In this document: one piece after another, positions 5,945 through 53,879 of the stretch
Layout: the number at the start of each line of letters is the position of its first letter
How positions within the stretch are numbered: position 1 is the stretch's first letter
Source of the DNA: Bolinopsis microptera
Taxonomy: Eukaryota > Ctenophora > Tentaculata > Lobata > Bolinopsidae
Length of the DNA: 64,000 nucleotides
Direction: 5' to 3'
NCBI RefSeq assembly: GCF_026151205.1
Contig: NC_087078.1
Location: 7,332,675 to 7,396,674, forward strand
Notes under the pieces: model-generated
Databases searched by the model: none
Told to the model about the DNA's origin: nothing
The model's input: only the letters and a program-made list of their open reading frames with translations
Position numbers and translations under genes: made by a program

Positions 5945-6290
5945 TTGTAATACCGGCCTCTAATACCGGCCTCTAATACCGGCCTCTAATACCGGCCTCT
6001 AATACCGGCCTCTAATACCGGCCTGTAATACCGGCCTGTAATACCGGCCTCTAATACCGGCCTCTAATACCGGCCTCTAATACCGGCCTCTAATACCGGC
6101 CTCTAATACCGGCCTCTAATACCGGCCTCTAATACCGGCCTCTAATACCGGCCTCTAATACCGGCCTCTAATACCGGCCTCTAATACCGGCCTCTAATAC
6201 CGGCCTCTAATACCGGCCTCTAATACCGGCCTCTAATACCGGCCTCTAATACCGGCCTCTAATACCGGCCTCTAATACCAGCCTGTAATA
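5945..6290. repeat. 13-bp minisatellite (TAATACCGGCCTC)n
   Basis: About 26 nearly identical 13-bp units run in tandem. A few have G instead of C near the end (CCTG). The array starts about 45 bp upstream of the predicted ATG (5901) of the minus-strand cysteine-rich gene, so it occupies that gene's likely promoter or 5' UTR. Confidence 0.95.
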
Positions 6291-6299
6291 CCTCGTCAC

Positions 6300-16609: not shown

Positions 16610-16770
16610 TACCTGGGGACCTCAGGCTATCATGTTCATAAATAGTGAAACAAATTTAGTGAAACAAATTTAAAATTTTCTCCTTTATTTTACAATCATA
16701 ATATAATAATATTTATAAGTCTCCGTTTTGAAAGTTTTAAATTTTAATATATTCACATTTCTATTTGTAT
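16610..16770. repeat. dispersed repeat shared with 24,362-24,465 and 24,718-24,748
   Basis: The segment 16,640-16,745 is the reverse complement of 24,362-24,465. The preceding ACCTGGGGACCTCAGGCT recurs directly at 24,720. It directly precedes the 5' end of the truncated reverse transcriptase. Confidence 0.6.
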
Positions 16771-17870
16771 TTAAAAGTAAGTATGTCTCGGTATTAGGTG
16801 AAGAATCCGAGAAACTTCCAGTAGTCTATGGAGTGCCGCAGGGGAGCTGTCTTGGTCCCTTACTTTTTATTATTTATATTAATGACATCCGTAACTCATC
16901 AATTATAGGAAAGTTTATACTATTTGCCGACGACACTAACATATTTATAGAAGACACATGTGTCAAAAGACTATACGAAAAAGGAAATGAAGTTCTATCA
17001 TTTGTGTACAAGTATATGAAACTAAACTTATTACATATTAACATTAAGAAATGTTGTTTTATTCATTTTAAACCCTCACGGGCCAAAGAGGAAGTAGAAA
17101 ATGACGAGAACATACTAACTTTAAATAATGTAGTTATTAAAAGAGTTCAAGAAGCTAAATTTCTAGGCGTTATTATTGACGACCAACTTAACTGGAAATC
17201 ACATACGCAGTCACTTAACTCAAAACTTAAATGCGAAGTAGGAAAGCTGTGCAGAATACGACACATTGTCCCAAAGCAGTATTATAAGGATTTATATCAT
17301 ACTCTATTTGAATCACATTTAGGATTTGGAATATCTGTGTGGGGTGGTATTAGCAATAACCGACTTGAACCTATCTTTAAAACACAGAAAAAGTGTATAA
17401 GAATTCTGTTTGGGGATAGAGAAGCTTACCTAGAGAAGTTTAAAACGTGTGCCCGAACACGACCTGTTGATAAGCAAAGACTGGGGTTGGACTTTTACCA
17501 AAAAGAACACTCCAAGCCCTTGTTTAAAACCCACAGGTTGTTGACGGTCCACAATCTGTACAAGTACACTTGTCTCTTAGAACTATTCAAAATTAATAAG
17601 TTAGAGGAACCATTATCACTGTACTCATCATTTAACAGGTCACCACGACGAGAGGATTATTTCATTACATCACAACCATCCTCACAATTCATCTACCAAT
17701 CATCCTACATGTGGAACAGCTGTCGACAAACATCAAGTAAGATAAGTTTTAATACTCCATCAAACGGGTTTAAGAATATATTGAAAATTGCCTTACGAGA
17801 ATTGCAATTCAAGCATGATACACTTGATTGGTGTGAGCTTAATTTTGCCACAAATGAGCTCAAGTTCTGA
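16771..17870 (+). pseudogene. 5'-truncated reverse transcriptase, CR1/L2-like LINE (family A)
   Basis: The frame runs from fingers/palm to the C-terminus. It has GVPQGSCLGPLLFIIYIND (RT block 4), FADDTNIF (catalytic Asp pair, near 16,921), a FLGVIID block, and the long C-terminal region with HSKPLF and WCELNF. The retroelement sequence starts at about SKYVSVLGEE; residues before it come from flanking repeat. It lacks the endonuclease and everything upstream, as expected of a 5'-truncated LINE insertion. It is about 90% identical by eye to the minus-strand copy at 28,975-30,003 and serves as the empty-site reference for three insertions there. Confidence 0.9.
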
Positions 17871-19050
17871 TTTATGTGAGTTACTAAAATGACCATATAT
17901 CTTTTCTCATACATATAACCACTGCACTCCAACCAAAAACATTACTTACACCATACTCCACAAATGATATATATATATACACAAACACACTAGTACCGAG
18001 CAATCGCACTGTAAAACATGCTCACGATACACTCAAAATTGGAAATATTCAACGGCTTGTATATGAAACTTACACTTACACTCAGTGTACACCCAGTGTT
18101 AACTAGTATTACACACTGGTAAACTCTACGTAACGCGCGAAAATAATAATTCTATGGCGTTTTCATTGTCACATTTCACGTCGACGGGATTAAACGCGCG
18201 CGCGCGCGCGTAACATCTTATCTTACTGCTATCTCAACGAATAAACACACAACGACTTTGACAATTGACCGACGACTTAACGATTGTGAGTTATGACGGA
18301 CTTAACTGTATGGGTCAACTACTAAAACTGCATTGTATACTATCTTAATCATTATACTGGACATGAGATGACGAAGTATCTTGAGCAGCACTTTATACCT
18401 CCACTTAGAACTTGATTAGTCACGAACAATAGAATCATTATAAATCAATACAATAAAACATCTTGATCAATAAATGCCTAGCAGCACCAGACAGCAGCCG
18501 TGTACCTTTTTCGACTCCACGGAGTCCCTGATGGACTTTTGTTTACTTTTGTTAATAATTTGACCGCAACCTTTCTTTCTCGAAACACAAATCCTACTGT
18601 ACTTCATTACAGTATTAAGATAATATAATATAAAGCAAATCATGTGAATATATGACTACGAAATAGATCTATAGACTTGTCCATAATATTTAATACCGTA
18701 TTGATGGTTTTGAATTTTGTATATTGAATTTTAATGTGAAGCGTTTACTCTTCCCCCTCGGCAATTAATTAGAAAGTTAGATTAATGACAATAATTGCCA
18801 AATGACGTAGTAGATATAGATGTTCAATGTTGTAGAGTGATTTCAAGAGTAGTGGTCCACAGGGGCCCGAAAAAGCCGTACAGGCACTTGGGTCCTTATC
18901 CTTGTCACTAGTCCCAATTGGATTCACTTTACACAAAACATGAACGTTTACAATTTAGACGTACACATTGGCACGATATTTATTAGAAAGCAAACAGTAT
19001 AAAATAATACGTGCGTGCGCGGCTTGAGCCGCGCCGCATAACAATTTTAT
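17871..19050 (+). repeat. left arm of a large inverted repeat (LINE 3' flank)
   Basis: The whole interval matches, in reverse complement, pieces between 28,200 and 24,833. Landmarks are the TATATATATACACAAACACAC stretch near 17,970, the (CG)n tract near 18,195, and the sequence GTACACATTGGCACGATATT near 18,961. It may be an unusually long 3' UTR of family A or a segmental inverted duplication. No coding sequence is present. Confidence 0.8.
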
Positions 19051-19054
19051 TTAT

Positions 19055-20005
19055 TATAACTCCATCCTAATAAACTACTACCCTCCCTCAGTTGATACCA
19101 CCACTAGTAGCAAGCTCCCTTTTCACTCTGACGATGAGTCTGAGATTATTGCTAACTCAGAAATTGCTACTATCAGCATAGGCGACGTCAGGAAGGTGTG
19201 CTTTAAGTGCATCTATGAGACCGGAAACGAAGCCTCAACTGAGTATGTTCATAGTGTAAGTCCAGAATCTAACTCAGTGTATGTGATGACACGATCGTCA
19301 CAAGCCTGGTATCGTCACGGTATTGATGAAACAGGTCCTGCTGAAACTCAGTCTTCTGTGCAGACAGGAAGGTTCTCCATCACACTGAGAACTGTGAGCA
19401 AACAGTTTAGCCGGAGCTGCATCATCATGGGCGACTCTAACACCAAGCCCATCAAGTTCGGTGTCGGTACTGGAACCCTTGGACAGTCCTTCCCAGGTGA
19501 ACGTGTTAAAGCCAACAAGGTCAGTGCAATAGACCCTAAGCTCTGCATTGGTTATAGCAACGTCATCTTAGTTTGTGGGACCAACGATCTACGAGTTGAA
19601 AATGTGCAGTCACCTGGTGATATACACCAGCTGGTAGACATTCTCCACCTGAAAATCCAGCAGATCCAGAAACTGTGCCCTAAGGCGAAGTTGTTTGTCA
19701 CAGCAGTTTTACCGTCTAGACTCCCTAAGATGAATAAAAACATTATGGCATTCAACAGCTTGGTTGATGAAATGTTGTACTCTAGCTTTAACCAGACTGT
19801 ATGGCACCTTGGTGTTGGCCACTTTTTAGACGGTAAAGGGTTGCTTGCTATGAAACTCACGAGAAATGGTGATGAAATCCATCTCGGAGAGCTTGGTATT
19901 GCTAAATTTGTGAGATGTCTGAAACAGTGGGTGTATGTGAGGGAGAGACAGGAGAGAGTAAGACAAAGGAAGGCCACCCGACCAGTGGGAGTTTATCCCA
20001 CTTAG
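19055..20005 (+). CDS. LINE ORF1, 5'-truncated: AlkB-type dioxygenase + SGNH hydrolase (family B)
   Basis: Homology to the full ORF1 at 33,982-32,780 starts near 19,058, upstream of the first GTG start at 19,196, and ends at TAG 20003-20005. The AlkB part keeps N-x-Y (INYYPP), KLPFHSDDE (iron ligands His and Asp, codons 19,124 and 19,130), VYVMTRSSQAWYRHGID (distal His ligand) and RFSITLR (2-oxoglutarate-binding RxSxTxR). The SGNH part has IIMGDSN (nucleophile Ser block), a Gly-containing block, VCGTNDL (Asn block) and DEIHLGELGIAKF (C-terminal Asp-x-x-His block). SGNH esterases are known in CR1/L2 ORF1; the AlkB fusion is the unusual part. The frame is the same as that of the PHD-endonuclease ORF beginning 7 bp after the stop. 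Confidence 0.85.
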   Translation, partial: YNSILINYYPPSVDTTTSSKLPFHSDDESEIIANSEIATISIGDVRKVCFKCIYETGNEASTEYVHSVSPESNSVYVMTRSSQAWYRHGIDETGPAETQSSVQTGRFSITLRTVSKQFSRSCIIMGDSNTKPIKFGVGTGTLGQSFPGERVKANKVSAIDPKLCIGYSNVILVCGTNDLRVENVQSPGDIHQLVDILHLKIQQIQKLCPKAKLFVTAVLPSRLPKMNKNIMAFNSLVDEMLYSSFNQTVWHLGVGHFLDGKGLLAMKLTRNGDEIHLGELGIAKFVRCLKQWVYVRERQERVRQRKATRPVGVYPT

Positions 20006-20011
20006 TTTATC

Positions 20012-23000
20012 ATGATTATGAAACTTATTAAAGATGTGTGCGACCCCTGTAGTAAATACATTAATATTGGCCAGCCACTCTTAGAATGTGAAAATTGCAG
20101 CAAAGTTGTTCATACTAAGTGCTTCAGATCCGCGAAATTTACAAGCAAAAACGGTCTATGGATGTGCAGTGATTGCTGTAGTACAATAGAAGATAGGTAT
20201 TGCCCATTTCCAAGCAGCCAAAGATATGATGATTCAGATAAATTCTATGATACAAACAACCAGGAAGATGTCACCATAGCTAAATTCTCTTCAATACTTG
20301 AAGACTGTAAGCGTTACACAAAACAAGAACTAGCAAACTCAATCAGCAAACTTTTTCCTGAGAAAAATAAAAATTCTGCTTATCTGCCCGCTCTGTTTTG
20401 CAATATAGATGGGTTTGCTAGTAATTTTGACAGCTTTTTAATAGAACATAAGACCCTCCCGTGTAATTTTGATGTCATTGGATTGGCTGAGACCAACATC
20501 GATCCAAGCCAACAAGGCTTATACCAAATCCCCTCCTATACAACATTTTGTCAAGTACCATTCCCTGATAAGAAAAAAGGAACAGGAGTATCCTTATATG
20601 TCTCTGATCGCCTGAATGCTGTAGTAATCGAAAATCTATCTCACTGTACAAAAGATATTGAGTGCTTATTTGTTGAAATTACTCTTAGCTCGGGTGATAA
20701 ACTGACATATGGGGTTGCTTATCGTCCTCCAAATGGCTGTAGTGAGACCTTTTGTCAAACTCTTGAGGATATATCTAAGCAGTTGGCTGGTAAAAAGTTC
20801 CATATTCTTGGCGATTTTAACTCTAACCTCCTCAATGTACAAACCTCCAGCCAGCTATTTGAGGACACGTTACTTCGTAACAATATGTATCCTACTATAT
20901 CACTTGCTACCCACTTCCGTCCTAACTGTAAAAACTCATGTATTGACAATATCCTCACATCAGAGATAGATCATGTACTTCTCTCCGGTGTATTGAATGA
21001 TAGGATTGGTGACCATGCCTTTATATTCACCTTCACGTCAATTCCTACCGAAAACAGTACTGAAAAACTTAAACATGTTCGCTACTATGATTATTCAAGT
21101 TCCAAACTCACTAATTTTGTTAATGAACTCGAGGTGAAGGTGAATGACTTGACTCCCTCGGTAAACTTCAATGAGTTCTTGGACTGCTTCAATGAAACAC
21201 TTGATAAACACTGTAAGCTTGATGTACCAAAAGTTACCAAAAGGACTCCCAAACTCAACCCGTGGATTACCGATGGAATCATTGTCTCAGTTGAAAGAAA
21301 ACATGAACTCTGTAGAGACTGGTCAAGCACTGTAACAAATAGAAACCCTGAGGGTAATGTACTGCTCTATAAAGTCTTCAGTGACTACCGAAGAATGCTT
21401 AAAAGTATTATCAAGGTCGCCAAACGATCGTACTACTGCAATGAAATCCATAAAAATATAGAAAACAGCAAAAAAAACGTGGCAGATAATCAATGAGCTC
21501 AGGGGCAAGAAAAAGAAGCAAACTAAGCCTCCCTTTATCATAAACAACGAACGAATCATGAATCGTAGAGTCATAGCCAATGGATTCAACTCTTACTTTG
21601 TTTCTATTGCCCCTAAGCTCAATGAAACACTTAGTAGCAGTGAGGCCTCTGGTTTACCAATTCTCCCTATAAAAACATTCTATGATTTCCTTGGAAAGAC
21701 TAATGAAAAATCGATTATGTTAGAAGACTGTACACCTTATGAGATAACGGAAATAATAAAAGGATTTGAAAATGGAAAAGCAAGTGATATTCCTGTTAGT
21801 GTAATCAAAAGATCATCTCACGTAATTACACCGATCCTTAGTCGATACATCAACATCTTAATGTCTAATGGCACGTTCCCCGACGTTCTAAAGACTGGTA
21901 GAATAACTCCTGTATTTAAGAAGGGAAACCCTGAAGAGATAGAAAACTACCGCCCAATCTCTACTCTCTCTATATTTGGTAAAATCTTTGAAAAGATCAT
22001 TTACTCAAGAATATATTCGTTTGCTAGCTCACAGGGTATAATATCTAAAACACAATTTGGCTTCAGGCAGTCACACTCTACTTCACATGCAGTTAATCAC
22101 TCAGTAAACCTTATAACTGAATCTCTAAAACTTAAGCATCATGTCTTAGGCATATTCATAGACCTAAGCAAAGCTTTTGATACAATAGATCATGGTACAT
22201 TACTTGTCAAATTACAGGGCTATGGGATACGTGGGGTGGCAAATGATCTTATAAAAAGTTACTTAACAAATAGATCACAATATACTGAAGTTGTTGGTGA
22301 GAAATCTGACGCCTTGAAAATACAGTTTGGAGTCCCTCAGGGTTCGATTCTTGGACCTCTCTTATTTCTCCTATATATTAATGATATCGCCAACAGCTCC
22401 AATTTGGGATCATTTGTCACCTTCGCTGATGACACCAATATATTTGTGACTGGGAAATCTAAAAAGGAGGCATATATGCGTGGTAATTCTCTTTTAGCTA
22501 GTTTATATTCCTACATGCGAGCAAACAAACTCCATGTCAACTTGTCTAAATGCTGTTTCATTCACTTTAAACCAGCATCGTCCTCCCAGACTGACAATAA
22601 TTCTGAATATACTCTAACCATTGATAACTTTCCAATAAAACAAGTTGCATCTGCTAAGTTTCTGGGAGTCGTCATCGATGAAAAGCTAACCTGGGAAGAA
22701 CATATAAAATCACTTAGGCGTTCTCTCAGCCATGCAACATCAACTCTCTGCCGCCTACGCTGCTCCCTCCCAGATTTCTTACACCGCCAGTTGTATTACA
22801 CTCTATTTGAATCACACCTCTCCTATTGTATCACGGTTTGGGGTGGGGCAGCCAAAACTCGTATAAGTTCTGTATTCAAAGCACAAAAATATTGTCTCAG
22901 GGTACTGTTTGGCGACAGGGAGGCATACCTAGATAAATTTAAGACCTGTGCTCGTGCTCGACCGTTTGGCAACCAAAATCTGAACAAAAAATTTTTCTTG

Positions 23001-23408
23001 AAAGAGCACACGAAACCTTTGTTCAAGGAACACGGAATACTTGCCGTCCAAAACCTGTACACTTACCATTGTTTCCTTGAGCTCTATAAAATCATGAAAT
23101 TCCGTGCTCCGATTTCCCTCCATGAAAATTTCACCTGCTCAAGTAGGAAACCCACCCTTATACTAAGCCAAGCAGACCCCCCTGACAACTTCAATAGCAG
23201 AACGACTCGTATTTGGAACGTAATTGTGCCTAAGCTTGGTATACGTGACTACTGTCTAAGTGTGGCCTGCCTGAAGTCTAGGATGAAGCAATCACTGCTC
23301 GTCAACCAGCATAACCATGCTGATCTTGATTGGACAAACAAAGATTTCGAATGCTCTAATCTAAATTTTGACATTAAGTCTACCCTAGGGTCCACACATC
23401 CAAAATGA
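20012..23408 (+). pseudogene. LINE ORF2: PHD finger, APE endonuclease, reverse transcriptase (family B), one frameshift
   Basis: The first part, 20012-21496, has a PHD-like zinc finger. Its pairs are CDPC, CENC, HTKC and CSDC. An APE-type endonuclease follows (LAETNI, GTGVSLYV, YRPPNG, GDFNSNLL, SCIDNIL, GDHAFI). The second part, 21558-23408, carries the RT: FIDLSKAFDTIDH, GVPQGSILGPLLFLLYIND, FADDTNIF, KFLGVVIDE, and the same C-terminal domain as family A. The two frames meet in a run of eight A at 21,470-21,477. Removing one A would bring SKK directly to TWQIINELRGK, the sequence found in family A. So this is an almost intact element of the CR1/L2/Rex1 group with one homopolymer frameshift. 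The PHD finger at the start of ORF2 rather than in ORF1 is unusual. Confidence 0.9.
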
Positions 23409-24083: not shown

Positions 24084-24810
24084 AGGGGCTGGAGTACGCG
24101 TGTTTACAGATTAATGAATTGTTGCATTGTAAATATTTAAAGTTGACGATATATTATGATTTAATAGTAAATTTTTCAAAGCTGGCTTTGGACTTAGGTA
24201 AAATTATAATTTATTTATTTAAAAGAAAAAACCACGGATAGTTTTTAATTTACATAGTCGTATAACTATAATCAAGTTAATCCTGTTTTCAAGAATGCGC
24301 GGCTTTGGCGGCCAGTTATTGACTTGTACATAAAATTGAATTTTAAATAGAAATGTGAATGTATTAAAATTTAAAACTTTCAAAACGGAGGCTTATAAAT
24401 ATTATTATATTATGATTGTAAAATAAAGGATAAACTTTTAAATTTGTTTCACTAAAATTTGTTTCACTAAAATTCAATTTAATGTATAAGTCAATAACTG
24501 GCCGCCAAAGCCGCGCATTCTTGAAAACAGGATTAAATTGTTTATGATTATACGACAAAGAGAAATAAATTTAAACTATCCGTGGTTTTTTAAAATAAAT
24601 TATAATCTTACCTAAATCCAAAGCCAGCTTTGTAAAATTTACTATTAGATCATAATATATCGTCAATTCTCAATATTTACAATGCAACATTTCATTAATC
24701 TACATACAAGCGTACTCTTACCTGAGGACCCCAGGCTATTATGTTCATTAACATATAGATTTGGCGGAATGACAGGCTGAGCGCGGCCCAGTAAGCGTAC
24801 TCCAGCCCCT
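24084..24810. mobile_element. palindromic (fold-back) element with a nested insertion
   Basis: Terminal AGGGGCTGGAGTACGC at 24,084 is the reverse complement of GCGTACTCCAGCCCCT at 24,795-24,810. The inner arms, about 24,104-24,340 and 24,460-24,707, are also complementary (for example CAAAGCTGGCTTTGGA and TCCAAAGCCAGCTTTG). The loop, 24,362-24,465, is the reverse complement of 16,640-16,745. The right arm is interrupted by a 75-bp insertion. No ORF is conserved. Confidence 0.75.
24718..24792. mobile_element. 75-bp insertion with 10-bp target duplication
   Basis: AAGCGTACTC occurs on both sides (24,708-24,717 and 24,793-24,802). Removing one copy plus the insert restores the palindrome arm. 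The last 30 bases (GGCGGAATGACAGGCTGAGC...) recur at 34,058-34,090, next to the 5' end of the minus-strand LINE. A shorter relative (GGCTGAGCGCCGCCCAATAA) is at 52,986. Confidence 0.65.
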
Positions 24811-28910: not shown

Positions 28911-29059
28911 CAGGGACAAAAGGATTTCGCGGCATGTACGAAATCGCGAAATTTCCCATTCTCCGCGACAAATTTTATGTATAGTTTAATGTATAGCCTG
29001 TTAAATTTCGCGGTACCGCGATTTTTGGCCAAAATAATCGCGAAATCCTTTTGTCCCTG
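28911..29059. mobile_element. hAT-type MITE, 149 bp
   Basis: TIRs CAGGGACAAAAGGATTTCGC and GCGAAATCCTTTTGTCCCTG are flanked by an 8-bp duplication ATGTAGGA (28,903-28,910 and 29,060-29,067). The empty site, CCACATGTAGGATGATTGG, is present in the other LINE copy (complement of about 17,695-17,715). The insertion interrupts the RT C-terminus. Confidence 0.93.
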
Positions 29060-29986
29060 ATGTAGGATGATTGGTAGATGAATTGTGAGGATGGTTGTGA
29101 TGTGATAAAATAATTCTCTCGTCGTGGTGACCTGTTGAATGATGAGTACAGTGATAATGGTTCCTCTAACTTATTAATTTTGAATAGTTCTAAGAGACAA
29201 GTGTACTTATACAGGTTGTGAACAGTTAACAATTTCTGATTCTTAAACAAGGGCTTAGAGTGTTCTTTTTTGTAAAAGTCCACACCTAGTTTTTGCTCAC
29301 CAAATGGTCGTGTCCGGGCACAAGTTCTAAATTTTTCTAAGTAAGCTTCTTTATCCCCAAATAGAATTCTTATACACTTTTTCTGTGTTTTAAAGAGAGG
29401 TTCGAGTCGGTTGTTGCTAATACCACCCCATACAGATATTCCAAATCCCAAATGTGATTCGAATAAAGTATGATATAAATCCTTATAATACTGTTTAGGG
29501 ACAATGTGTCGTATTCTGCATAACTTACCTACTTCACATTTAAGTCTTGAGTTAAATGACCGTGTGTGAGTTTTCCAATTAAGTTGATCATCGATAATGA
29601 CACCTAGAAATTTAGCTTCTTGGACTTTTTTAATGACAACATTGTTCAAAGTTAATATGTTCTCGTCATTTTCTACTTCTTCTTTGGCACGTGACGGTCT
29701 AAAGTGGATAAAACAGCATTTCTTAATGTTAATATGTAATAAGTTTAGTTTCATATACTTTTAAACAGATGCTAAAACTTCATTTCCCTTTTCGTACAGT
29801 CTTCTGACACATGTTTCTTCAATAAATATGTTAGTGTCATCGGCAAATAGTATAAACGTTCCTATAATTGATGAGTTTCGGATGTCATTTATATAGATGA
29901 TAAACAGCAAGGGACCTAAACAGGACCCTTGGGGCACTCCGTAGACAACGGGCAGTTTCTCAGAGTCTTCACCTAATACTGAGACA

Positions 29987-32672: not shown

Positions 32673-32779
32673 ATCCCTGAAGGATCTACTGTCTACCCTT
32701 GTGGACCTCCTCTTCCTTTTGTCGATACCACCGTTAATCCTGAGAAGAACAGTGTTACGAATAAATTGACCTAACTTTG

Positions 32780-34056
32780 CTAGTCCCCTCCAGTTGAGGT
32801 GAAGGAAGTCTGGTTTTTGGTGTTTGTTGAGGTCGCGAGAGAGAGAGAGCGGTCAAGTAGACCATCTCTATCACAGAACTCATCAAATCCATCCACATAA
32901 CTGACACCAAAATTGGACGGGAGCAGCCTACGTCGAATCAAACTGTTAAAATATATAAGTTTTCTATTTAAGTCAGCACGTTTAGAGGAAATTGCTGGAC
33001 AAACAAAAACATGTATACACGGATTGACAGATTGTATCTGTGCAATCTTTGAAGCTAATGCATTATAAATAAGTTCAATGTCATGTTGGTTCTTGACCTC
33101 TTCGTTTTTGAGGTCGTTGACCCCGCACAATATTACACAGTTTCTATACCCCAACGTGACATAAGGATCTATACTATCAATGACCGGAGCGAAGATGCGT
33201 TTGCCAGGTAACCACTTGCCGAATGACTTAGCAGGATCAGTACCAAATTTCAAGCCTCCAGTGTTTGAATCCCCGATGATGCATGTGGCATTTCTGTTCA
33301 ACGAATTCACGGATCTAAGTGTGATGCTGTAACGTAGCCCTTCTATATCACCTGCATCAATACGATGGTTGAACAGTGCTTGGCTATGACGTGTCATAAC
33401 ATAAAAGGAACGTGGGTCACATTGCTGCTTGTGCTTATCAGTGCCTGTGTGAGAGTCCGAGAAAGAAACCTGACATGCAGAACCAAGCGAGACAGTGAAT
33501 ATTTTAGACTCTGGATGGATGGTCGGCTCATCATCAGAGTGTCTAGGTAGCTTGCTGTCTGTTCCTTCAAACCGATTTACTAAGCAGCTGTTGATCTGAG
33601 GTAGATCACCCTGGCAGAACTCATTATTGATTTTGTCAATGAGTTCCTTGAGAACCGATGGTATTGCCTGTGGCTTTTCAGATGACTTGGAACCTGGGTA
33701 ATCATACCTTTCCCCATATGTTAGGCAGGAGCGGTCGTTCTCAACTTTGAAGTGACCACTGTCCTTAACAAAAAGTTCACCTAAATCATTTGCTGTTTGC
33801 TGATCATTGTAGTCATTTTTGAACATTTCCACAGGTTTCTGCTCATGATTGGGTAGCTGCACAGGGACTGTAGGGACTGGAGAACGAAGGTGCTGAGTAG
33901 GAGGTCCTGGATGCAATGAGGTGGGAGGAATGCAGGGGCCAGGATTATGCAATGGCTGTAATGAGTCTAAGGATTGTTTCAATTCACTTATGCCTGCAGC
34001 TGCAGTGTGCTCATTGGCACAGAGTACAGTGAGCTGTTCAGAGATTGTTAGAGATT
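32780..34056 (-). CDS. LINE ORF1: AlkB-type dioxygenase fused to SGNH hydrolase (family A)
   Basis: The frame is annotated from a TTG at 33,982; it is open further up to about 34,056, where retroelement sequence seems to end. Counting from 33,982, LTYGERYDYPG (about 87-97) and NRFEG precede KLPRHSDDE (His148, Asp150). FYVMTRHSQALFNHRID gives the second His (206), and RYSITLR (217-223) is the RxSxTxR signature. This is the complete Fe(II)/2-oxoglutarate site of AlkB proteins, which remove methyl groups from DNA or RNA bases. The SGNH part follows: IIGDSN (about 235-240), the Gly block and LCGVND (about 285-290). The frame shifts in the GA/TC run 32,837-32,849. In the shifted frame DFLHLNWRGLAKLGQF completes the SGNH Asp-x-x-His block and runs on into ORF2. 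Confidence 0.9.
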
Positions 34057-34090
34057 AGGCGGAATGACAGGCTGAGCGCGGCCCAGTAAG

Positions 34091-35226: not shown

Positions 35227-35574
35227 AACTAATTGGGAGGCCGACAAAGGGGGGCCCTCCATTATTAGAGGTCAGATCATATGACGTATAATTAGTGATG
35301 TGACGTATAATTAGTGATGTGATCCATCCATGTGATCCATCAGTAGACCCAGAAATGAGCTAGATATAGGGTAGAGTTCACATGTCAATTCTGTAAATCA
35401 TAGCTGTACATTAAGAAGTAAACATGATCTGACTGCTCGACTCGTAGATCACATAAGGGACGGGAGCTCTTGCTAAAGGGGGTTTTCGTATCAAGGGATG
35501 TGAGACGTACGTGCCAAAGGCATGCAAGGAGAGTGAGCCGATCAAGTGTTCTTAGGTATATTATATACTGAAAG

Positions 35575-36213
35575 ATGAAAGACAATAGTATCGCATTCTT
35601 ACATTCTATCAACATGCCTACCTTCTCCAAATTCATCTCTGGTCGGACAGGATCTCAACAGCTACTTGACTCTGACGGATTCATCTACTGTCGGAAGAAG
35701 AACAAGGATTCAGCCCTCACATCTTCCTGGCGGTGTTGCAAGCACAAACTCCCTACGAAGTGTTCGTGTCCAGTGGCTGATGTCGAGGAAGTCTTCTACG
35801 AAATAACTTACTATATACAGACAAACTATCCTAAGCTAATGTCTATAGTGAATTATTTTGAGAAGACTTACCTTGGGTCAGTCATTGTGGACAGTGAGGT
35901 GAGGCTTCTCCCTGCATATCCCTTAGGATTCTGGAACCATTTCGCCAGAATCATTCGGGATCCGGAGTTCCCTCGAACCTCGAACATGGTTGAGGGCTTT
36001 CACAGAGGATTTAAGTATGTGAGAGCTATCAAAGAGCAGCAAGTCATCACTGACTTTCACATCGACAGGTTGAGTGTTGGCAAGACACCCGCTAAGAGGC
36101 GAAGGAATTGCCATACCCAACTCCACGATATCTGTTCATTTTACTCCACATACTCTAGCAAGATCGAGTATTTGTTTTCTGTAGCCTCAGTTTTTGGGCA
36201 CGATATGTATTAA
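35575..36213 (+). CDS. FLYWCH zinc finger joined to MULE transposase C-terminal part
   Basis: Of 212 residues, about 17-65 form a FLYWCH-type finger: KFISGRTGSQQLLDSDGFIYC..., then SSWRCCKH, KLPTKCSC. The C-terminal half has PLGFWNHFARIIRDPEFPRTSNMVEGFHRGFK. It matches the WN...PRTNNxVEGxH segment at the end of FLYWCH-linked Mutator-like transposases. The DDE catalytic core normally between these parts is missing, so the protein cannot be an active transposase. It is an internally deleted copy, or a short DNA-binding derivative kept intact. The uninterrupted frame inside intact TIRs suggests a young element. Confidence 0.75.
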   Translation: MKDNSIAFLHSINMPTFSKFISGRTGSQQLLDSDGFIYCRKKNKDSALTSSWRCCKHKLPTKCSCPVADVEEVFYEITYYIQTNYPKLMSIVNYFEKTYLGSVIVDSEVRLLPAYPLGFWNHFARIIRDPEFPRTSNMVEGFHRGFKYVRAIKEQQVITDFHIDRLSVGKTPAKRRRNCHTQLHDICSFYSTYSSKIEYLFSVASVFGHDMY

Positions 36214-36226
36214 ATTATAATTAATG

Positions 36227-36424
36227 TATTCAGTATTCAGTATTCAGTATTCAGTATTCAGTATTCAGTATTCAGTATTCAGTATTCAGTATTCAGTATT
36301 CAGTATTCAGTATTCAGTATTCAGTATTCAGTATTCAGTATTCAGTATTCAGTATTCAGTATTCAGTATTCAGTATTCAGTATTCAGTATTCAGTATTCA
36401 GTATTCAGTATTCAGTATTCAGTA
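36227..36424. repeat. 7-bp minisatellite (ATTCAGT)n
   Basis: About 28 almost perfect copies of a 7-bp unit lie just after the FLYWCH ORF stop, inside the MULE-like element. Confidence 0.97.
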
Positions 36425-36756
36425 AATTTGATTAGGGGTAGAGTTCACATGTTCTGTAAATCATAGCTGGTGGATCACATCACTAATTATACGTCACATC
36501 ACTAATTATACGTCATATGATCTGACCCCTAATAATGGAGGGCCCCCCTTTGTCGTGCAGCGAACTAATTTATTTAAAATCTTTAATTAATAAATTGGAA
36601 GATTTTTTAATATAAACTTTTTCCTGAAAGCTTACAGTTTTGACTGAGTTATTTATAATATAAATAGATATTTTACAGACTTTTTGTCGAAAATTTCTAT
36701 TGACATTGAGGTTCTGTTGTCAAATCACAGCAGATTAATCCATTCCACTATAGAAA

Positions 36757-39700
36757 ATGAAGATGTCATTATCAGAAGAAAATGATGCTGTATTCAGAAA
36801 AGCTAGTCAGTTTGTAAAATCTTGCACGAAACAACTACAGAATATCCAACATTCAGAAAACAATGTGGCATTAGTAAGTCTCTGTCAATTTTTGATTTAC
36901 AGCTCCAATTGCTTACTTCGCTAAAACCTCAATATCTGTAGTTTTTTAAATAGTTTCAATACATAGACAGTACAACCTGATTGTCCGTTAGGTTGAAGAA
37001 ATGCTGAATAAAGCACAGCTTCATCTACGAGAAGTGGAAAAAAGACAAAAAATAATGCAAGAATCAGGAAACAAGGCGGAAGTGAACAGATTAGAGAACA
37101 TAAAGGTCCCCCTCATTACTCTAATCGACAAACTCAAACCAAATGAGGACGAAGCTGATTATTTCAGATCTGTCAAGGCAGAAGAACAAGATTTGTCGGT
37201 AAAAATGTTTGCTTATTTAATATATATGTTATATTATTTTGTTGACAATAAGATAATGATAATTAAATGTTTTTTGTTTCCATAACTAACATGAAATTAT
37301 TGTTCCATAGAATTGCTCCATTGAATTATTGCCCAGCTCCATTGAATTTTGAATCGCTGATCATATGCTCTACACTCCAGGAGGGGGAAGAGGAGAGTTT
37401 AGATTATGAAGATGAAGAAGATGAAGAAGAAGATGACGAAGAAGAAGAAGAAGATGTCGATGAAGAAGATGATGACGATTATGAAGATGGTAAGACCTAA
37501 TCGAGTTTGCTATTAGTGAATATTTCACTTATCTTAATTAATCAAGAGTGTAACAAACCTTTACACACTTCAGATGTGGAAGAAGAGGAAGAAGAAGAGG
37601 AATACACTGAAGATGAGGATACAGAAGATCTGACAACAAGCACATTACCTAGCATTGCTTGCGAGGCTGTTGGAAATTACACTGCATTGGTTAGTCGTGA
37701 TAAGAACTCACATCCACCTTTTCATGGCATTTCCCCGTAATTAATTGAGTTGTTTATTAATTGATCAAGTTATTTAAGCAATGATATTCTAATTTTTGTG
37801 AGTTAGTAGATTCAAAAGTGTGAATGAATAATTCTGTTATTATAAATTACATTATTCCTCATTAACTCATTTAGATTTTAAGTAATAAAATTATTCGTAA
37901 TGTGTTTACTGTTTACCATATTCTTAATCGGACAGGAGTCAGGGGATTTGTCGTTTAAGAAAGGAGACAAGTTCGCAGTGAGATCTCAGAGAAGAGACGG
38001 GTGGTGGGAAGCAGATAATCTGGAGAATGGAGAGTCGGGCATGATACCCAGTAACTTCATGAAGGTAATAATTTCCTAGATTCGTGTTATATATTTATAT
38101 AGGAAACACGCTTTTTGGTCCTATGCTGTTTGCTAAGTTAGGATACTAAGAGGGCTTAGGTGGAGCGAACAATGGCACTATGGGGCTACTATTCTGCTGC
38201 CACTATGAGGTAGTACATATTTAGATAGATTATCAACATAACTTCCTCCAGGTGAAGACGTTAGAGGAGTCCATGAGGGAGAAGAGGAAGCCGAAACAAG
38301 TACGGGACATGTTAAAAAACGTAAAGTTTGAACAGCTCCGATCTGCATTGTTACTCAACACTGGTTCTCGACCTTCTACTACTATGAGGTTTCTTCGAGG
38401 TAGTTATTCATTAATGAGTATTTTAATTAATTAATGGGTATTGGGTATTTTAATCACTGATTGTAAGATCAAACTCACATAGATCCATTGTCTTAAATCT
38501 TGCTTTCTCCCTTAACAAGTTCAATAAACATTTCTAAAACTTGATTCAAGCGAGTGAATTAATAATTGCATTCCTCTTAGATAACTCAACATATCTGTTG
38601 AGTACATGGCTTCATCCCAGACTTTCTGCGACCTGTATTTCATATAAAGATCTTCACTGGGATATGAGGAACAATAACATTGTACCTGTGGCTAGTATTA
38701 ACAGGTCAGTTTAACAGTCTCTCCATTTTCTTTGTTTATTTGAAAATAAACATGTTCTGATTTTAAACAGTTGTTTTAAGCATCAAAGTAGCTGACTACT
38801 AGTGTCTAGTCTATATCGGTTATCACAATAGGAGAAGACGACTTCTTTTAAACCTTACAATTTACACTCTACTCACCTGAAAATTGCTCATTTTTCTTAG
38901 AAACATTCATGAATATAAATGTTCAGGATTATTACCGTTAACATGGTCAGAAACTTGCCCCCTCCTAAACCAAAAGCTCTCATAGTCGCCAGAAGGGTAT
39001 GGAAACCAAAACATTAGTTTTAAACCTTCAAAATAATTGGTTTTTCCTAATTCTTGTGCTACTGTATGATTACTTTTACGATGAAGAAGAAAAATATATT
39101 TGTGACATCGCTAAGTTAGTTGATTGATTGATAATAAACTATAACTCAGGTGCACATGGCAATAACCACCAAGATGTCCAGTCAAGAGTCTCTGCTGAGT
39201 AACGCTCACACGATAAACTGTGTGTGGAACGCGGCTGACCCTAACACGTGGAAGTTCGTCAGGAACAGCGGTTGTTGGTTTACTCCTAAAGTTATCTGTA
39301 GGATCGAGTCCAGTGATGCTAATGTCGGACTTCTTATTGAGGTAAAGCGTCAGTAACTGAGGGTACAAGGTGCAAGGTGAATTATTCTGCAGCACAGTTT
39401 GAAAAAGTCGCAGATCAAAAAAGCACTCAAAATTATGTATTTGGAATTTAGAGTTGGACTTTCCGTTCCATATGTTCCGCGGAACGATATTTGACGAAAG
39501 TCGATTATCTTGAGATCTGACTGATAGATTTTCTTTAAACTTTGGGACAAATAAATTCGCCCAAACTCGCACAGATTATCCGTCTTATAGCCATGTAACT
39601 ATCTGGACAGTTAAAGAAACTTCTGTCGGTCAGATCTCGAAATATATGCCTGCGTTCCGCTGAAACCGCCAATTTGGAGATATTTTCTTGTGTTTGAAGA

Positions 39701-41761
39701 CATATCTCAAGTTTGGCACATAGAAATTCGACCAAACTCGCACAGATTATCCGTCTTATAGCCATGTAACTATCTGGACAGTTAAAGAAACTTCTGTCGG
39801 TCAGATCTCGAAATATATGCCTGCGTTCCGCTGAAACCGCCAATTTGGAGATATTTTCTTGTGTTTGAAGTCATATCTCAAGTTTGGCAAATAGAAATTC
39901 GACCAAACTCGCACAGATTATCCGTCTTATAGCCATGTAACTATCTGGAAAGTTAAAGAAAATTCTGTCGGTCAGATCTCGAAATATATGCCTGCGTTCC
40001 GCTGAAACCGCCAATTTGGAGATATTTTCTTGTGTTTGAAGACATATCTCAAGTTTGAAACATAGAAATTCGATTAAACTCGCACAGATTATCCGTCTTA
40101 TAGCCATGTAAAACTATCTGGAAAGTTAAAGAAAACTCTGTTGGTCAGTTCTTGAGAAAATCAAAAATGTATTCTAAGTTATTTACTAAAACACTCGATT
40201 TTCGAACTTTTTATTTGGAACAGATTTGTCGAAAGATTCATCTATTAATTTGGAGAGCGCATGGTAAAATTGTTGATTAAATGACCTTTTTCAGCAGCTA
40301 GTTTATTACTTTTCGCGCGCGCGCGCAACGTGTTACTTAACATGTTTTTCACCTGGCTAGTGGCTGGCCACTGGCCATCTTGCAGTACCAGACCAGTTCT
40401 AGCTACCGTAACAGACAGAACTGGACACAGGCTGGGACTGAATGAAACATCAATCTTCACGATATTAGTCCCATGCTTGAAAATACTTAGCCCTATGTAG
40501 CTAATATAATTTCATTTGCCAGGCCTGCTGTGTTTACAAAAACGAGGAAACTTCAGATCTAGTGGAAGCTTGTGTTGGATGGACGTTTCTCCCTCTTTTT
40601 CAATCTAACGGTGCTCCTGTTCCCAACAAGACACAGGTATAGGGATAAGAACCAATTAACTAAATGTGATATAATGTACTCAAATAAAAGTGATCAAATT
40701 CAGCAGATTTACGTCCATACAAATTTGACCATTTCTAATATCACTATAAATTTTATCAGATTAAAAAGGCGGTGGTTTTACAATTATAACTTTGCCTCAG
40801 TCTCTGCCGCTGTACGGAGGTTTACCATTTGAGGCTGGTATAGATGTAGACGAAAACTGGCCTCCCCGGCGTACGTTTGGGCGGCCCAGCAAACCTCAGA
40901 TAAACATCAGTGTGTCGTCTATATCACGTTTTAAAGAGCAGGTTTGTTTTGTAGAATTGTTGTACTTGGTTATATTTCTACCTCAGTCATATGTTTACCA
41001 TATATTCACAGCGTCTAAAGTATCCTCTATCCAGGGCTTGACGACTACTTGTGATTATTTCAGGACCGTTTAAATTGTAACCATAATTGAAACCACTCAT
41101 CACTAAAATGCTGCACTCTCCAGGAGGTAGCGAGATTGCCTAGCACCATCTTAACCAGTACACTCAACATCAAAACAATTGGACTATTCCGGCGAGAAAT
41201 TGCAGAGGCCCTCCTCAAAGAAACAGATTGCAGTCAGAATGGTGTTCGGTTTAATCCTACGATATCGTTGATGCTTCAGATGGCTGACCAGCCTGTTCTA
41301 ATGGACTTGTTTAAACGAGTGTTCGCTGAGCGGACAAAAGAGCTGAGAAGAGCAGATAAGAATGACCCAAAGTTCATGAAAAAGCATCTGGAGGATGTTC
41401 TGAAGTCTACTATCTGGCCGGTAAGGGAGTAACTTATAAATATAGCAGGGGAATTATTTATGCAACGTTTACTCCTATATTTACGGTTTATCACAGTTTT
41501 GAACTTGAATTATTTTTGAGGGTTAATAGTCGTTTCCCGACCTAATCACTCCGTTCCTCCCAGATGGTAACAGGGAATGCTCCACAGCTGGCTCACGATC
41601 CTGTGACACGTGTTCAAATTAATGACAGACTAAGTCTAGCGAACGGGGTCGCTGCTCAAGGAGCACTGGCGATATTCTCCAAAGAGGGGCCTCATGTTCC
41701 GTTTGACATTTCCGAACTCAGCTATGTTCCAATTTATCGGCAGTATTTCTTGAACGTCTGA
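36757..41761 (+). CDS. NPHP1: nephrocystin-1 (13 exons)
   Basis: Exons: 36757-36873, 36992-37198, 37381-37489, 37574-37689, 37936-38064, 38252-38399, 38581-38704, 38927-38996, 39150-39341, 40523-40636, 40801-40941, 41124-41420, 41564-41761; 1,962 nt, 653 residues (human about 732). Every junction is GT-AG and in phase. Order matches the family: N-terminal coiled coil (exons 1-2), long Glu/Asp stretch (exons 3-4), SH3 domain (EAVGNYTAL, DLSFKKGDKF, GWWEADN, GMIPSNFMK), then the nephrocystin homology region (LPPPKPKALIVARRV, NTWKFVRNSGCWFTPKVICR, VGLLIE, GGLPFEAGIDVD). It ends GPHVPFDISELSYVPIYRQY, close to the human C-terminus. Nephrocystin-1 scaffolds the ciliary transition zone and cell junctions with NPHP4, p130Cas and Pyk2. 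Intron 9 carries a 171-bp satellite and a (CG)n tract. Confidence 0.97.
39410..40150. repeat. 171-bp tandem repeat in NPHP1 intron 9
   Basis: Starts of the unit (CCGTCTTATAGCCATGTAAC) are at 39,580, 39,751, 39,922 and 40,093. That is three full 171-bp units, with decayed partial units on both sides. Short minus-strand frames repeat the same peptide but have no other support as genes. Confidence 0.92.
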
Positions 41762-45400: not shown

Positions 45401-48400
45401 AGGAACATACAATTGCGAGGGAAAAAGAAAGTCAGTTTACGATGTAACGTTATTGTACCAAATTTCGCAATTTATAATTTAGCAATTTAATTTTGTAAAA
45501 CAGGGGGGGGGGGGGTAAAAGTCAGTACACATCACCCAATCAACATTGAATCGCTTATGCTCGTGTTTGTGAAGATGCTAGAAACTTTTAACATATTATC
45601 ACAGTAGGTCATTAAATGTGTAATATGATCTGAAAAGATGACGTAAAACGGAATCAAGTTATACCAGGAAGAATTATAGCTGCCGGACAATTTCACCCAA
45701 TGTCAATGAGCACTAAGTGACAGAGAAATAAGCCCCAATTTATGTGTACTGACTTTAATTAGCCTCCCCTGTATATGAAATAATTTTCTTTATAATCTGT
45801 TTTCATATTTGTTATCTTATTTTTCATCTCATTTGTTATCTAACAATGTAAGACGGTTTTAAAACATATTAACCCTCAAAGAACGCCAAAATGCCCCAAA
45901 ATACCCTCAAAGAACGCCAAAATCCCCAAATACCCTCAAAGAACGCCAAAATACTTGCCCGAACAGCGCAGAGTCTCTCAACAAGAATGTTGTAGAATGG
46001 ATCACTGGACAGGACAATCCCTCGGTTGAAGTTCCTTAGTGCTTGGTACAGTTCAGTATCTCCCGATGTTAGCGTCTGGGGAATATAATCACTTATTAAC
46101 ATATTATAATTATACGGTCATTAATTAAAACACTACAACCTGCTATCTTCGATAATATGATGAGATAAAAACCTGGCAGAGATCTTGGAATAATTATGTA
46201 CTACCCGTAGTAAAAATTCAAATATGAAATCACCATAATGAACTACCGGTTGCGGTAGCATATTTTCAAATATAAAGTTTACTAAATCAAAATTTCACAG
46301 TTATGACGGAATATTTTTCCAGTAACCAATTAGTCAGTTAACTATGGACTATGGATGCCATATTGTCACTTTTAAATCCATGATTTGTGAATTCTAATTG
46401 GATACTACAACATTGCACACACATTTCAGCATAACGATAAAAGATAGTATCTAATGACATTTTCCTGTCATTAAGTCTAGTGTTAGGGTGAGACAACGTG
46501 ACCTTTTCTTGATGATCTGAGATAAAGTTACCTTTTCTTGATGATCTGAGATAAAGTTACCTTTTCTTGATGATCTGAGATAAAGTTACCCTTTCTTGAT
46601 GATCTGAGATAAAGTTACCCTTTCTTGATGATCTGAGATAAAGTTACCTTTTCTTGATGATCTAAGTTACCTGCGATATGAACAGTTTATCTGCGTTTCT
46701 AGAGCCTCTCCCGTAAGTCTCATTACATTTCTCCTCCGTCAACATGTTAAAGTCTACCTCGCTTGTATCGCTGAAAATTTCAGGGATTTTGATATTACCC
46801 ACAACTCACAAGGACTGGAAGAGAGAAAAGGAGAGGGAGAGGGAGAGGGAGAGGGAGAGGGAGAGGGAGAGGGAGAGGGAGAGGGAGAGGGAGAGGGAGA
46901 GGGAGAGGGAGAGGGAGAGGGAGAGGGAGAGGGAGAGGGAGAGGGAGAGGGAGAGGGAGAGGGAGAGGGAGAGGGAGAGGGAGAGGGAGAGGGAGAGGGA
47001 GAGGGAGAGGGAGAGGGAGAGGGAGAGGGAGAGGGAGAGGGAGAGGGAGAGGGAGAGGGAGAGGGAGAGGGAGAGGGAGAGGGAGAGGGAGAGGGAGAGG
47101 GAGAGGGAGAGGGAGAGGGAGAGGGAGAGGGAGAGGGAGAGGGAGAGGGAGAATTTACTCGTAATCTGTTGTTCATCACAATATTTCAATATTTATTGAC
47201 TATTACCCTGAACATCAACTCTGCAGAATACATTAGAAATACAAATAATAATGATAATTAATAATTAATAATTAACCTGTAAATAAGGAGGCCGTTTTGG
47301 AGGTCTGCTTGTTTGTCACAAATCAGACGTCCTCTACTCCACACTGATATGAATACTGAAACATTTCTGTATTTAATATTTATAACGGAGAGTTGAAACT
47401 AATGTTTGACTTGATATAATAATGATATAATATTCCTTGCATCAGATTCGATACAAAACTATAATATAATATTAAGGATTGCGTAACTAACAGTTACGCA
47501 ACGATAATATCATAGTTACTAACTATGATATTATCATTGTTGAACTTTATTCGAGTTTCATTATTCAGTTTTAATTCTTTCAACACTACTATATAACAAA
47601 TCATTTGAGTAGCCATTGCATGGCTACTGTTAACGACAAGGAGTTGGAGGATCTGCTCGGGAAATGTTCTGCTTGGATACCAAAAGCGATGGAACAAGTC
47701 GGGTGCACTGCTCCAGCTGTCGTGACGTCAGCATTGTGTAAACGTGCGATGAAGGACACTTTGCATTATTGTTTTCTGAATCGTTCCACTTTGTGCGGTT
47801 TCAGGCGAAAAAAAAATGTTTTAATTTAAAAAATATGAAACAGCTGAAGGCTGAGCTGAGCTCCATCAAGAGCCAGCTAATCGAGAATCAGACGTGGGTA
47901 ATCAGCTTCCAGGAGCAGATTATCGACAACAACTTGGACAAGCAGCTCGACGCAGTAAAGACTGTGGTCAAGTCTTCGGCGGAGAGCAACTTGAAAGAAC
48001 AGTTCAAGTCATACAGTGAAGCTGCTGCGGAGAGCGGTATGGTCTGCCAGACTGATAGTTTGGCAGATCCGGCTGCACTGAAGAAATTGGTCAAGTCCGT
48101 CGTCCAAGAGGAGAATCAGAGCAGGAACGTTGTATTATTAGGACTGCCAGAACAGAAGGACGAGAATGTTGAAGAGCGGGTACATGAGGTATTCCAGGAG
48201 ATAGGACTAAAAGTAAAACCAGCTTTGCAGGCTACTAGAATAAGAAAGATTCGTAAAGAGAATCCGAAGCGCCCAGTCAAGGTTTCGTTATCAAGTCACA
48301 GCTCTGTCGGCTGTCCATCAAGTGCTATGTCAAGTCAAGAAGCTGCGCCACTCAGCGACTTTCAACAAAGTGTATGTGAGACCAGATCGCTCCGAAGTAG

Positions 48401-52272: not shown

Positions 52273-52990
52273 AAATGTGACCTCCAGATCAGTAAAATAA
52301 GGTGCTCTGGGGGAGCTGCATAGAGTCCACTAGTATTTAATATTAGCCTGTACTGGCTCAATAAAATGTGACCTCCAGATCAGTTAAATTAGATGCGCTG
52401 GGAGAGCTGCATAGAGTCCACTAGTATTTAATATGAGCCTGTAATGGCCCAATAAAATGTGACCTCCAGATCAGTTAAATTAGATGCGCTGGGAGAGCTG
52501 CATAGAGTCCACTAGTATTTAATATTAGCCTGTAATGGCCCAATAAAGTGTGACCTCCAGATCAGTAAAATAAGGTGCTCTGGGGGAGCTGCATAGAGTC
52601 CACTAGTATTTAATATTAGCCTGTACTGGCCCAATAAAATGTGACCTCCAGATCAGTAAAATAAGGTGCTCTGGGGGAGCTGCATAGAGTCCACTAGTAT
52701 TTAATATTAGCCTGTACTGGCCCAATAAAATGTGACCTCCAGATCAGTAAAATAAGGTGCTCTGGGGGAGCTGCATAGAGTCCACTAGTATTTAATATTA
52801 GCCTGTACTGGCTCAATAAAATGTGACCTCCAGATCAGTAAAATAAGGTGCTCTGGGGGAGCTGCATAGAGTCCACTAGTATTATTTAATATTAGCCTGT
52901 ACTGGCTCAATAAAATGTGACCTCCAGATCAGTAAAATTAGGTGCGCTGGGAGAGCTGCATAGAGTCCACTAGTATTTAATATTAGCCGG
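52273..52990. repeat. 91-bp minisatellite upstream of IRF
   Basis: About eight units start at 52,273, 52,364, 52,455 and so on, each beginning AAATGTGACCTCCAGATCAG. Two sequence versions alternate (GTGCTCTGGGGGAG and ATGCGCTGGGAGAG types). The array starts 51 bp upstream of the IRF ATG, so it occupies the promoter or 5' UTR. Confidence 0.95.
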
Positions 52991-53879
52991 CTGAGCGCCG
53001 CCCAATAAAATTGAACGGGGAATCGTTTAACTAGATCACTTTTGAGGCACTTCGACAAGAACTACTCGCGATATTGTGCTTCTGATCTCACGGAGAAATA
53101 TATCAGTAGCGTTTTGAGCTTGTTAAGTTATTATTTTGGGTACTCCACATCAATAAAATATATGAAAACACAGTTAGTAATCAAATTGCACAAAATACAA
53201 ATCAAAAAAATCAAAATATAATGACACAAACATCATCACACATCATTAAAAATATATCCACTAAAGTTTAAAAATTATTTTAAATCTATTGGCTTAGACA
53301 ATCAAGTTAAAATGAATTTAATTTAATTGACGATGTCAATTCATCTCAGCTCGGCGCGGCACAGTAGCGCATCTCGCTAGGAGAAGCCTCATTGAGTGCG
53401 CGGCACAGTAACGCATTGCGCTATACAAAAATCTAATTTACATACTTTCCACTACTATATAAGTTGATAAAGCGTTTTTTAGTAACATGAGGATTACACA
53501 CAAAATAAACAAAATAGTGTAAAAACCGAATAGTGTGAGAAGGAGTTTTGAAATGCAACAACAACACTAACTGCTAAAGTATTTTTGTAAAAATATGACA
53601 ATATTTGCTTTAGCGCTTAACTTTCAAACAACGGTGTAAATTTTTGAAAATATGCGCGGCGCACCTAAAATTTTGGTTCCATTTAAAATTAATTTTTGTT
53701 CAGAATTATATTTAATATATGTAAATTAGTCGGTATCACAAAACATATGAAAAAATTCAAAATATAGCACCTATATACCAAAAATGAAGTGCGCGCAACA
53801 AAGCTTAGATTTCTACCCCTTTTTGGATTTGTACCCAAAGAAAATTTAAGGAATTTGTGTTATCTTTGTACCACGTTGT
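52991..53879. other. intergenic region, AT-rich, no gene seen
   Basis: It holds GC-rich islands GCTCGGCGCGGCACAGTAGC near 53,347 and ATATGCGCGGCGCA near 53,650. The second recurs at 14,905, so parts are probably old transposon ends. Confidence 0.4.

Follow-up and report, generated by a model that had tools for sequence, protein, structure and literature searches.

Can the first open reading frame (ORF1) of an animal long interspersed nuclear element (LINE) join an AlkB demethylase domain to an SGNH esterase, and is such a fusion a property of the element or an accident of one locus? The question is raised by a 64,000-nucleotide stretch of the ctenophore Bolinopsis microptera (positions 7,332,675 to 7,396,674 of contig NC_087078.1; hereafter the window, whose own numbering is used throughout). 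An initial annotation, made from the sequence alone, had read both domains between 32,780 and 34,056 as a single frame, directly upstream of an ORF2 with a PHD-like finger, an endonuclease and a reverse transcriptase (RT). We find that the fusion does belong to the element, as this annotation had claimed: there are at least 188 homologous proteins, two-ORF elements with both frames open are repeated in the genome, and the AlkB part is under purifying selection. The window itself holds decayed copies of ctenophore LINEs, namely copy A at the annotated position, copy C of the same family, and copy B, which by its sequence is of a different family. Their features are as follows.

32783..34054, minus strand: ORF1 of copy A, 424 amino acids, 5'-truncated; last part of the helical region and linker, then AlkB and the beginning of SGNH
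33314..33739, minus strand: AlkB (2OG-FeII_Oxy_2) domain of copy A, Pfam PF13532, residues 106-247, E-value 1.8e-14
32738..33289, minus strand: SGNH esterase region of copy A; its outer limits were calculated from the alignment with the relative P0001
30318..32852, minus strand: ORF1 tail and ORF2 frame of copy A; weak PHD/RING-like finger, then endonuclease and the beginning of RT
28975..29979, minus strand: remaining RT of copy A, in a different frame (tblastn)
16719..18621, plus strand: copy C, C-terminal RT fragment and 3' part, copy A family; matches from 16784
19028..20002, plus strand: ORF1 of copy B, 325 amino acids, 5'-truncated inside AlkB; AlkB at about 19052-19390, then SGNH
20006..21493, plus strand: ORF2 of copy B, first frame; PHD-like finger (PHD 2.2e-4, under cut-off) and endonuclease (Exo_endo_phos 1.7e-5)
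21462..23405, plus strand: ORF2 of copy B, second frame; RT (RVT_1 6.9e-36)

Domains and decay of the window copies

The order AlkB then SGNH in one ORF1 frame, upstream of the PHD-like finger, endonuclease and RT, is borne out by Pfam and by the positions of the motifs. The absence of an AlkB profile match, named beforehand as refuting, is not what was seen: PF13532 is matched above its curated cut-off of 31.2 bits in both copies, with 54.8 bits in copy A and 55.7 bits (E-value 9.9e-15) in copy B. In copy A, the frame spans 32780-34054 on the minus strand (424 codons) and carries the AlkB motifs TYGERYDYPG (YGxxYxY, 33721-33692), RHSDDE (HxD, 33544-33527) and H...RYSITLRS (H...RxSxTxR, 33367-33311). 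These are followed by the SGNH motifs GDSNTG (Ser block, 33274-33257), the Gly block (33197-33211) and CGVNDL (Asn block, 33127-33110). The profile support expected for SGNH was obtained in part only, since GDSL_2 matches fall under the cut-off of 32.9 bits in both copies (residues 304-402, E-value 3.1e-4, 21.7 bits in copy A; only 0.045 in copy B), but the residues of SGNH are kept. The single-frame reading of copy A also needs a correction. AlkB and the Ser, Gly and Asn blocks are in frame, but a frameshift near 32846 (a tblastn search with the 738-residue P0001 changes frame at 32840-32846) places the SGNH Asp-His block in the ORF2 frame.

Copy A is damaged elsewhere as well. Its ORF1 is truncated near 34045, where homology begins at residue 256 of P0001, and it is without most of the N-terminal region with a PHD-like finger and helices that full-length relatives have. 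The ORF2 frame matches RVT_1 (1.4e-19), Exo_endo_phos (1.5e-4) and Prok-RING_1 (0.0016), and is interrupted within the RT from about 30336 to about 29979, i.e. over about 356 bp (tblastn). The stretch just beyond the 5' end (34049-34090) is found again elsewhere in the window, and no target-site duplication of at least 7 bp was found for this copy. Copy C is 88.6% identical to copy A over 935 blastn columns (16784-17718) and 88.3% over 805 columns (17837-18621).

Copy B had been put forward as a second copy that keeps the same key residues. The residues are indeed retained: the frame 19028-20005 has HxD, H, R and R of AlkB and the full set of five SGNH residues. However, its ORF1 shares about 36% identity with P0001 and 95% with P0137 (over 315 amino acids), and thus represents a separate family, and the truncation falls before the YGxxYxY part of AlkB. 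Because copy B belongs to a distant family, the argument that the fusion belongs to the element gains strength. Between the AlkB parts of copies A and B, 12 of 18 shared four-fold sites differ, which is near saturation, and no selection estimate is possible from this pair.

Relatives, genomic copies and selection

A protein search with copy A gave 143 relatives, 120 of them listed; together with searches using the AlkB part of P0001 and the second family, at least 188 relatives were collected. The fusion, sought in other copies and species, was found across B. microptera and Mnemiopsis leidyi, a ctenophore as well. The only other named host among the listed relatives is a bacterial label, Moritella sp. 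(P0170, on a 2.8-kb contig), provisionally taken as contamination (unproven). No close relatives were found in viral contigs, phage records or prokaryote contigs, the viral contig searches being made with one query protein each. In Mnemiopsis gene models, ORF1s of the copy A type stand beside a LINE endonuclease or RT, and one is apparently inserted in another LINE.

The 188 relatives and copies A and B were aligned jointly (190 rows). Both domains are present in 174 rows, and the remaining 16 have fewer than 120 residues of one domain. Of the 185 rows that can be scored at all five iron and 2-oxoglutarate ligand sites, 184 have every ligand: H423 is conserved in 185/186, D425 in 185/186, H481 in 188/188, R492 in 189/189 and R498 in 189/189, with E427 in 184/186. 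The esterase is equally constant at S514 (189/189), G535 (188/188) and N564 (188/188), and somewhat less so at D666 (171/181) and H669 (178/181); copy A is among the rows without H669, through its frameshift. The sole row without HxD is P0188, a 516-residue protein with an SGNH frame, in which the AlkB half is degenerate and the N-terminus holds a repeat region. Overall, AlkB is about as conserved as SGNH, both lie far above the linkers, and the ligands and the substrate lid rank among the most conserved AlkB columns. Both domains thus look catalytically intact, judging from these residues. Full-length ORF1s (about 700-750 amino acids) start with an N-terminal PHD-like finger of eight conserved Cys/His, with a second CxxC in some rows, followed by long helices that probably form a coiled coil.

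The protein of copy A was also compared with the B. microptera genome (264.65 Mb). The best 99 of 943 candidates were scored; they lie on many contigs, and 89 of the 99 have no stop inside the match, which is no proof of intactness as copy A itself is one of the 89. Eight of the matches, with 96-97% identity, lie in frames 698-751 amino acids long. In six units, ORF1 and ORF2 are both open (751+1141, 742+1126, 746+1121, 716+1122, 740+1133 and 707+1113 amino acids, in L050-L053, L055 and L047), and endonuclease and RT were found in all six ORF2s; the ORF2 of L054 is split over two frames. The features of a LINE are therefore present: endonuclease and RT in ORF2, and dispersed copies, both full-length and 5'-truncated. 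By its SGNH residues, the esterase would make this a type IV ORF1, an assignment of architecture and not an RT-based placement in CR1/L2.

Selection was estimated as the ratio of nonsynonymous to synonymous divergence (dN/dS, Nei-Gojobori) for nine AlkB pairs. The ratio is 0.135 between families A and A2 (bootstrap 0.075-0.25), 0.104 between the 551- and 537-residue families, 0.122 between those of 646 and 611 residues, and 0.085 between those of 593 and 607 residues. In the Helitrons described below it is 0.123 for L042 versus L043 and 0.043 for the close pair L041/L042. Three AlkB pairs (L052/L054, L047/L055, L034/L057) and several SGNH halves gave no ratio, dS being saturated; where measurable, the SGNH slices, which include linker and tail, gave 0.133 and 0.097. 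The interval of class 3 rests on 170 of 300 bootstraps, and the ratios are approximate because dS ranges from 1.1 to 2.9 in the five between-family pairs that could be measured. AlkB is nevertheless clearly under purifying selection (0.09-0.14 in these five pairs). Selection on the AlkB codons had been among the checks proposed for the fusion, and the ligands are conserved far beyond two copies.

The families have not diverged evenly. Between A (L002-L010) and A2 (L013-L025), dS is 0.03 in the N-terminal PHD region and about 1.06 in AlkB. With a near-identical PHD region and a diverged AlkB, these ORF1s are mosaics that a single tree fails to describe. The AlkB and SGNH trees have 38 of 97 splits in common (mean 0.2 and maximum 2 in 200 shuffles), and strong SGNH splits contradict 7 of 34 strong AlkB splits.

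AlkB subfamily and its carriers in other transposons

AlphaFold models both domains with high confidence, and the model has the double-stranded beta-helix fold of AlkB. In structure comparison, the AlkB model reaches its highest Z with human ALKBH2/ALKBH3, and the ALKBH5/FTO folds are listed at lower Z. An AlkB-only profile search of solved AlkBs agrees, with ALKBH2/ALKBH3 best (1e-16 and 7e-15), then ALKBH8 (2e-11) and E. coli AlkB (1e-7); by sequence, neither ALKBH5 nor FTO is among its 36 rows at E-values up to 1. A separate profile search gave a weaker match to C. elegans NMAD-1 (7e-5) and one to zebrafish ZfL2-1 (PDB 4c1b, 1.6e-4).

A piece of human ALKBH2, used as query, found a host ALKBH2-like frame (L031) at 50% identity and a 505-residue AlkB frame (L032) at 38%, presumed to be a cellular gene. 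Beyond these two, many frames of recurring lengths appeared, 28-40% identical to the human piece (best 150 of 594 scored), and all those fetched are transposon frames. In a 26-row tree, 23 transposon AlkBs are separated by a 99/96 branch from three cellular rows, these being only human ALKBH2 and two presumed host genes, with no ALKBH3 from another species. A recent capture of host ALKBH2 was considered and is not favoured, given the higher identity of L031 to the human protein than of the repeated frames, and the position of the transposon AlkBs apart from L031 in the tree.

Among the fetched frames are further LINE ORF1s with AlkB followed by SGNH, of 551-552 and 537 amino acids (L034, L040), of 537 amino acids in another family (L048) and of 593-607 amino acids (L045, L046). 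Others of 611-646 (L057, L059), 540 (L056) and 478 amino acids (L058) came from a query with a Helitron AlkB. No PHD finger was matched by Pfam in these nine ORF1s (478-646 amino acids). The downstream frames were scanned for all of these except L034 and L040. An endonuclease frame lies downstream in L045, L046, L048, L057, L058 and L059, with RT also in L045, L046 and L048; no endonuclease match was obtained in the short frame after L056. The AlkB of L058 is weak by profile (only PF03171, 0.0046) and forms a long branch.

The two domains also occur in Helitrons, on contigs C9 and C1. L042 is a single frame with SGNH, AlkB, DUF6570 and Rep (PF14214, 1.8e-23), continuous by coordinates into PIF1 (6.3e-25) in L060. 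L041 is like it as far as fetched, with Rep seen, and L043 has SGNH-AlkB with PIF1 downstream, so that Rep and PIF1 are both demonstrated for L042/L060 only, Rep alone for L041 and PIF1 alone for L043. The domain order is reversed relative to the LINE ORF1, SGNH being N-terminal and AlkB following. With the Helitron AlkB as query (best 150 of 727 scored), ten loci had 74-100% identity over 162-171 residues; three were examined, and four of the ten have frames over 3,200 amino acids. In the tree, the Helitron AlkBs group with the LINE row L056 (96/88), a grouping that includes the long branch of L056; of the PHD-type rows, L047 is placed away from the others. One tentative reading, which we rather doubt, is that in ctenophore transposons AlkB and SGNH travel together as a portable cassette of two enzymes. 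LINEs and rolling-circle Helitrons would have exchanged this cassette, its AlkB not being a recent copy of host ALKBH2, and it would clear methyl, perhaps acyl, modifications from single-stranded transposition intermediates or element DNA. If so, mobile elements would themselves fight host nucleic-acid modification, whether damage or defence.

The window contains other repeats. At 35242-36555, inverted repeats 98.8% alike enclose an array of tandem 7-base units together with an FLYWCH-like ORF (35572-36210). Long self-complementary stretches, 80-95% alike, are at 4621-4892, 24092-24717 and 56158-56896, and tandem arrays, seen as off-diagonal self matches, at 5946-6292, 39538-40155 and 52273-53011. 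Two frames similar by eye (47742-48431 and 50101-50673), both with an RSRNV motif, are perhaps another LINE ORF1 type.

Possible roles and known systems

The methylated bases 1-methyladenine (m1A) and 3-methylcytosine (m3C) arise on single-stranded nucleic acid and block polymerases, and ALKBH2 and ALKBH3 reverse both. The intermediates of LINEs are RNA and single-stranded cDNA, and that of Helitrons is single-stranded DNA, not RNA. E. coli AlkB reverses such methyl lesions (PMC544882). The ORF1 protein could multimerise on its own RNA through its long helices, and the esterase may hold it at membranes or ribonucleoprotein particles (RNPs), by analogy with zebrafish ZfL2-1, whose esterase is proposed to anchor the RNP at membranes (PMC3905857); this would account for the LINEs, not for the Helitron esterase. 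AlkB, as an ALKBH2/3-type Fe(II)/2-oxoglutarate demethylase, would then strip template RNA and single-stranded cDNA of methyls on the Watson-Crick face (m1A, m3C), where they would otherwise stop the RT. That LINEs and Helitrons alike carry an ALKBH2/3-like enzyme is probably best explained by a common need, the protection of single-stranded transposition intermediates. We regard this account as the likeliest and give it, taken as a whole, an even chance. Demethylation or repair of the element's RNA or cDNA, as the initial annotation had suggested, fits the ALKBH2/3-like sequence and modelled fold; its further idea of an escape from methylation-based defence is no more than possible.

AlkB could instead be a counter-defence eraser of a host-deposited silencing mark, either N6-methyladenine in element DNA (6mA) or its RNA counterpart (m6A), which we consider rather unlikely. 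The AlkB of orchid Ty3/Gypsy elements removes m6A from RNA in vitro (PMC9289625), young mouse L1s gained 6mA together with repressive marks when Alkbh1 was knocked out (PMC4982230), NMAD-1 is by name a DNA 6mA demethylase, and occurrence in LINEs and Helitrons alike fits a mark on DNA. However, the ctenophore profile is nearest to ALKBH2/3, with no ALKBH5 or FTO among its 36 rows at E-values up to 1, and m6A helps human L1, which ALKBH5 suppresses in human cells (PMC7873242). It seems improbable that AlkB is kept for binding nucleic acid or protein, or acts on host tRNA or proteins, instead of catalysing on the element's nucleic acid. AlkB families do have diverse substrates, and ORF1 proteins are mainly RNP proteins; against such a role, the ligands and the substrate lid are among the most conserved columns. 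Finally, truncation or frameshift of both window copies might suggest that the frame arose by a chance join, or that it is a pseudogene chimaera, a gene-model artefact or a host gene captured outside any mobile element. This is rejected as vanishingly improbable in view of the stop-free genomic matches, the six open two-ORF units, the Mnemiopsis models beside LINE endonuclease or RT, and the purifying selection.

Within LINE biology, the ORF1 proteins are the half that is poorly understood. An ORF1-borne AlkB, a predicted demethylase under purifying selection with well over a hundred scored copies in one genome, leads to the testable claim that template modification limits retrotransposition. 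Already known were ORF1s with an esterase or a PHD finger, and AlkB domains in RNA viruses and in a single orchid lineage of LTR (long terminal repeat) elements; no LINE with AlkB was found in a limited search of the open-licence PMC literature, subscription journals and Repbase being outside its scope. The closest LINEs are those of CR1/L2 with a type IV ORF1, such as ZfL2-1, with a coiled coil and SGNH esterase upstream of an endonuclease-RT; the ORF1 of ZfL2-1 is described with these two parts only, and the paper has no AlkB in its text (PMC3905857). A survey of 448 Jockey-superfamily elements gives esterase ORF1s in two vertebrate groups only and likewise has no AlkB in its text (PMC4120745). 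CR1, L2 and RTEX LINEs are reported to carry esterases, as are LTR and Penelope-like elements of bdelloids (PMC5408684); the LINEs among these are now joined by those of ctenophores.

Human ALKBH2 and ALKBH3 are the nearest cellular likeness by profile and Z, but the 23 transposon AlkBs lie beyond the 99/96 branch from ALKBH2. Helitron Rep-PIF1 transposons share DUF6570 and Rep (L042) and PIF1 (L060) in the same frame, to which L042 adds N-terminal SGNH and then AlkB. We know of no report of SGNH-AlkB in Helitrons, although the literature was not searched for AlkB in Helitrons; this link, if confirmed, would raise the novelty. In plant RNA viruses, AlkB is part of a viral polyprotein that is not known to contain SGNH or RT. 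Flexiviridae and related viruses are nonetheless alike as RNA-borne elements whose AlkB keeps H, D, H, R, R (PMC544882). The orchid Ty3/Gypsy (Ogre/Tat) elements are also retrotransposons encoding an AlkB-family demethylase, there in an additional ORF of a plant LTR element and reported to be of recent, ALKBH5-type acquisition (PMC9289625). In contrast, the ctenophore AlkB is an ALKBH2/3-type domain of a LINE ORF1, fused to SGNH and spread over many diverged families. Animal LINEs and, seemingly, DNA transposons are thereby added to plant RNA viruses and the single orchid LTR lineage as elements that have captured an AlkB.
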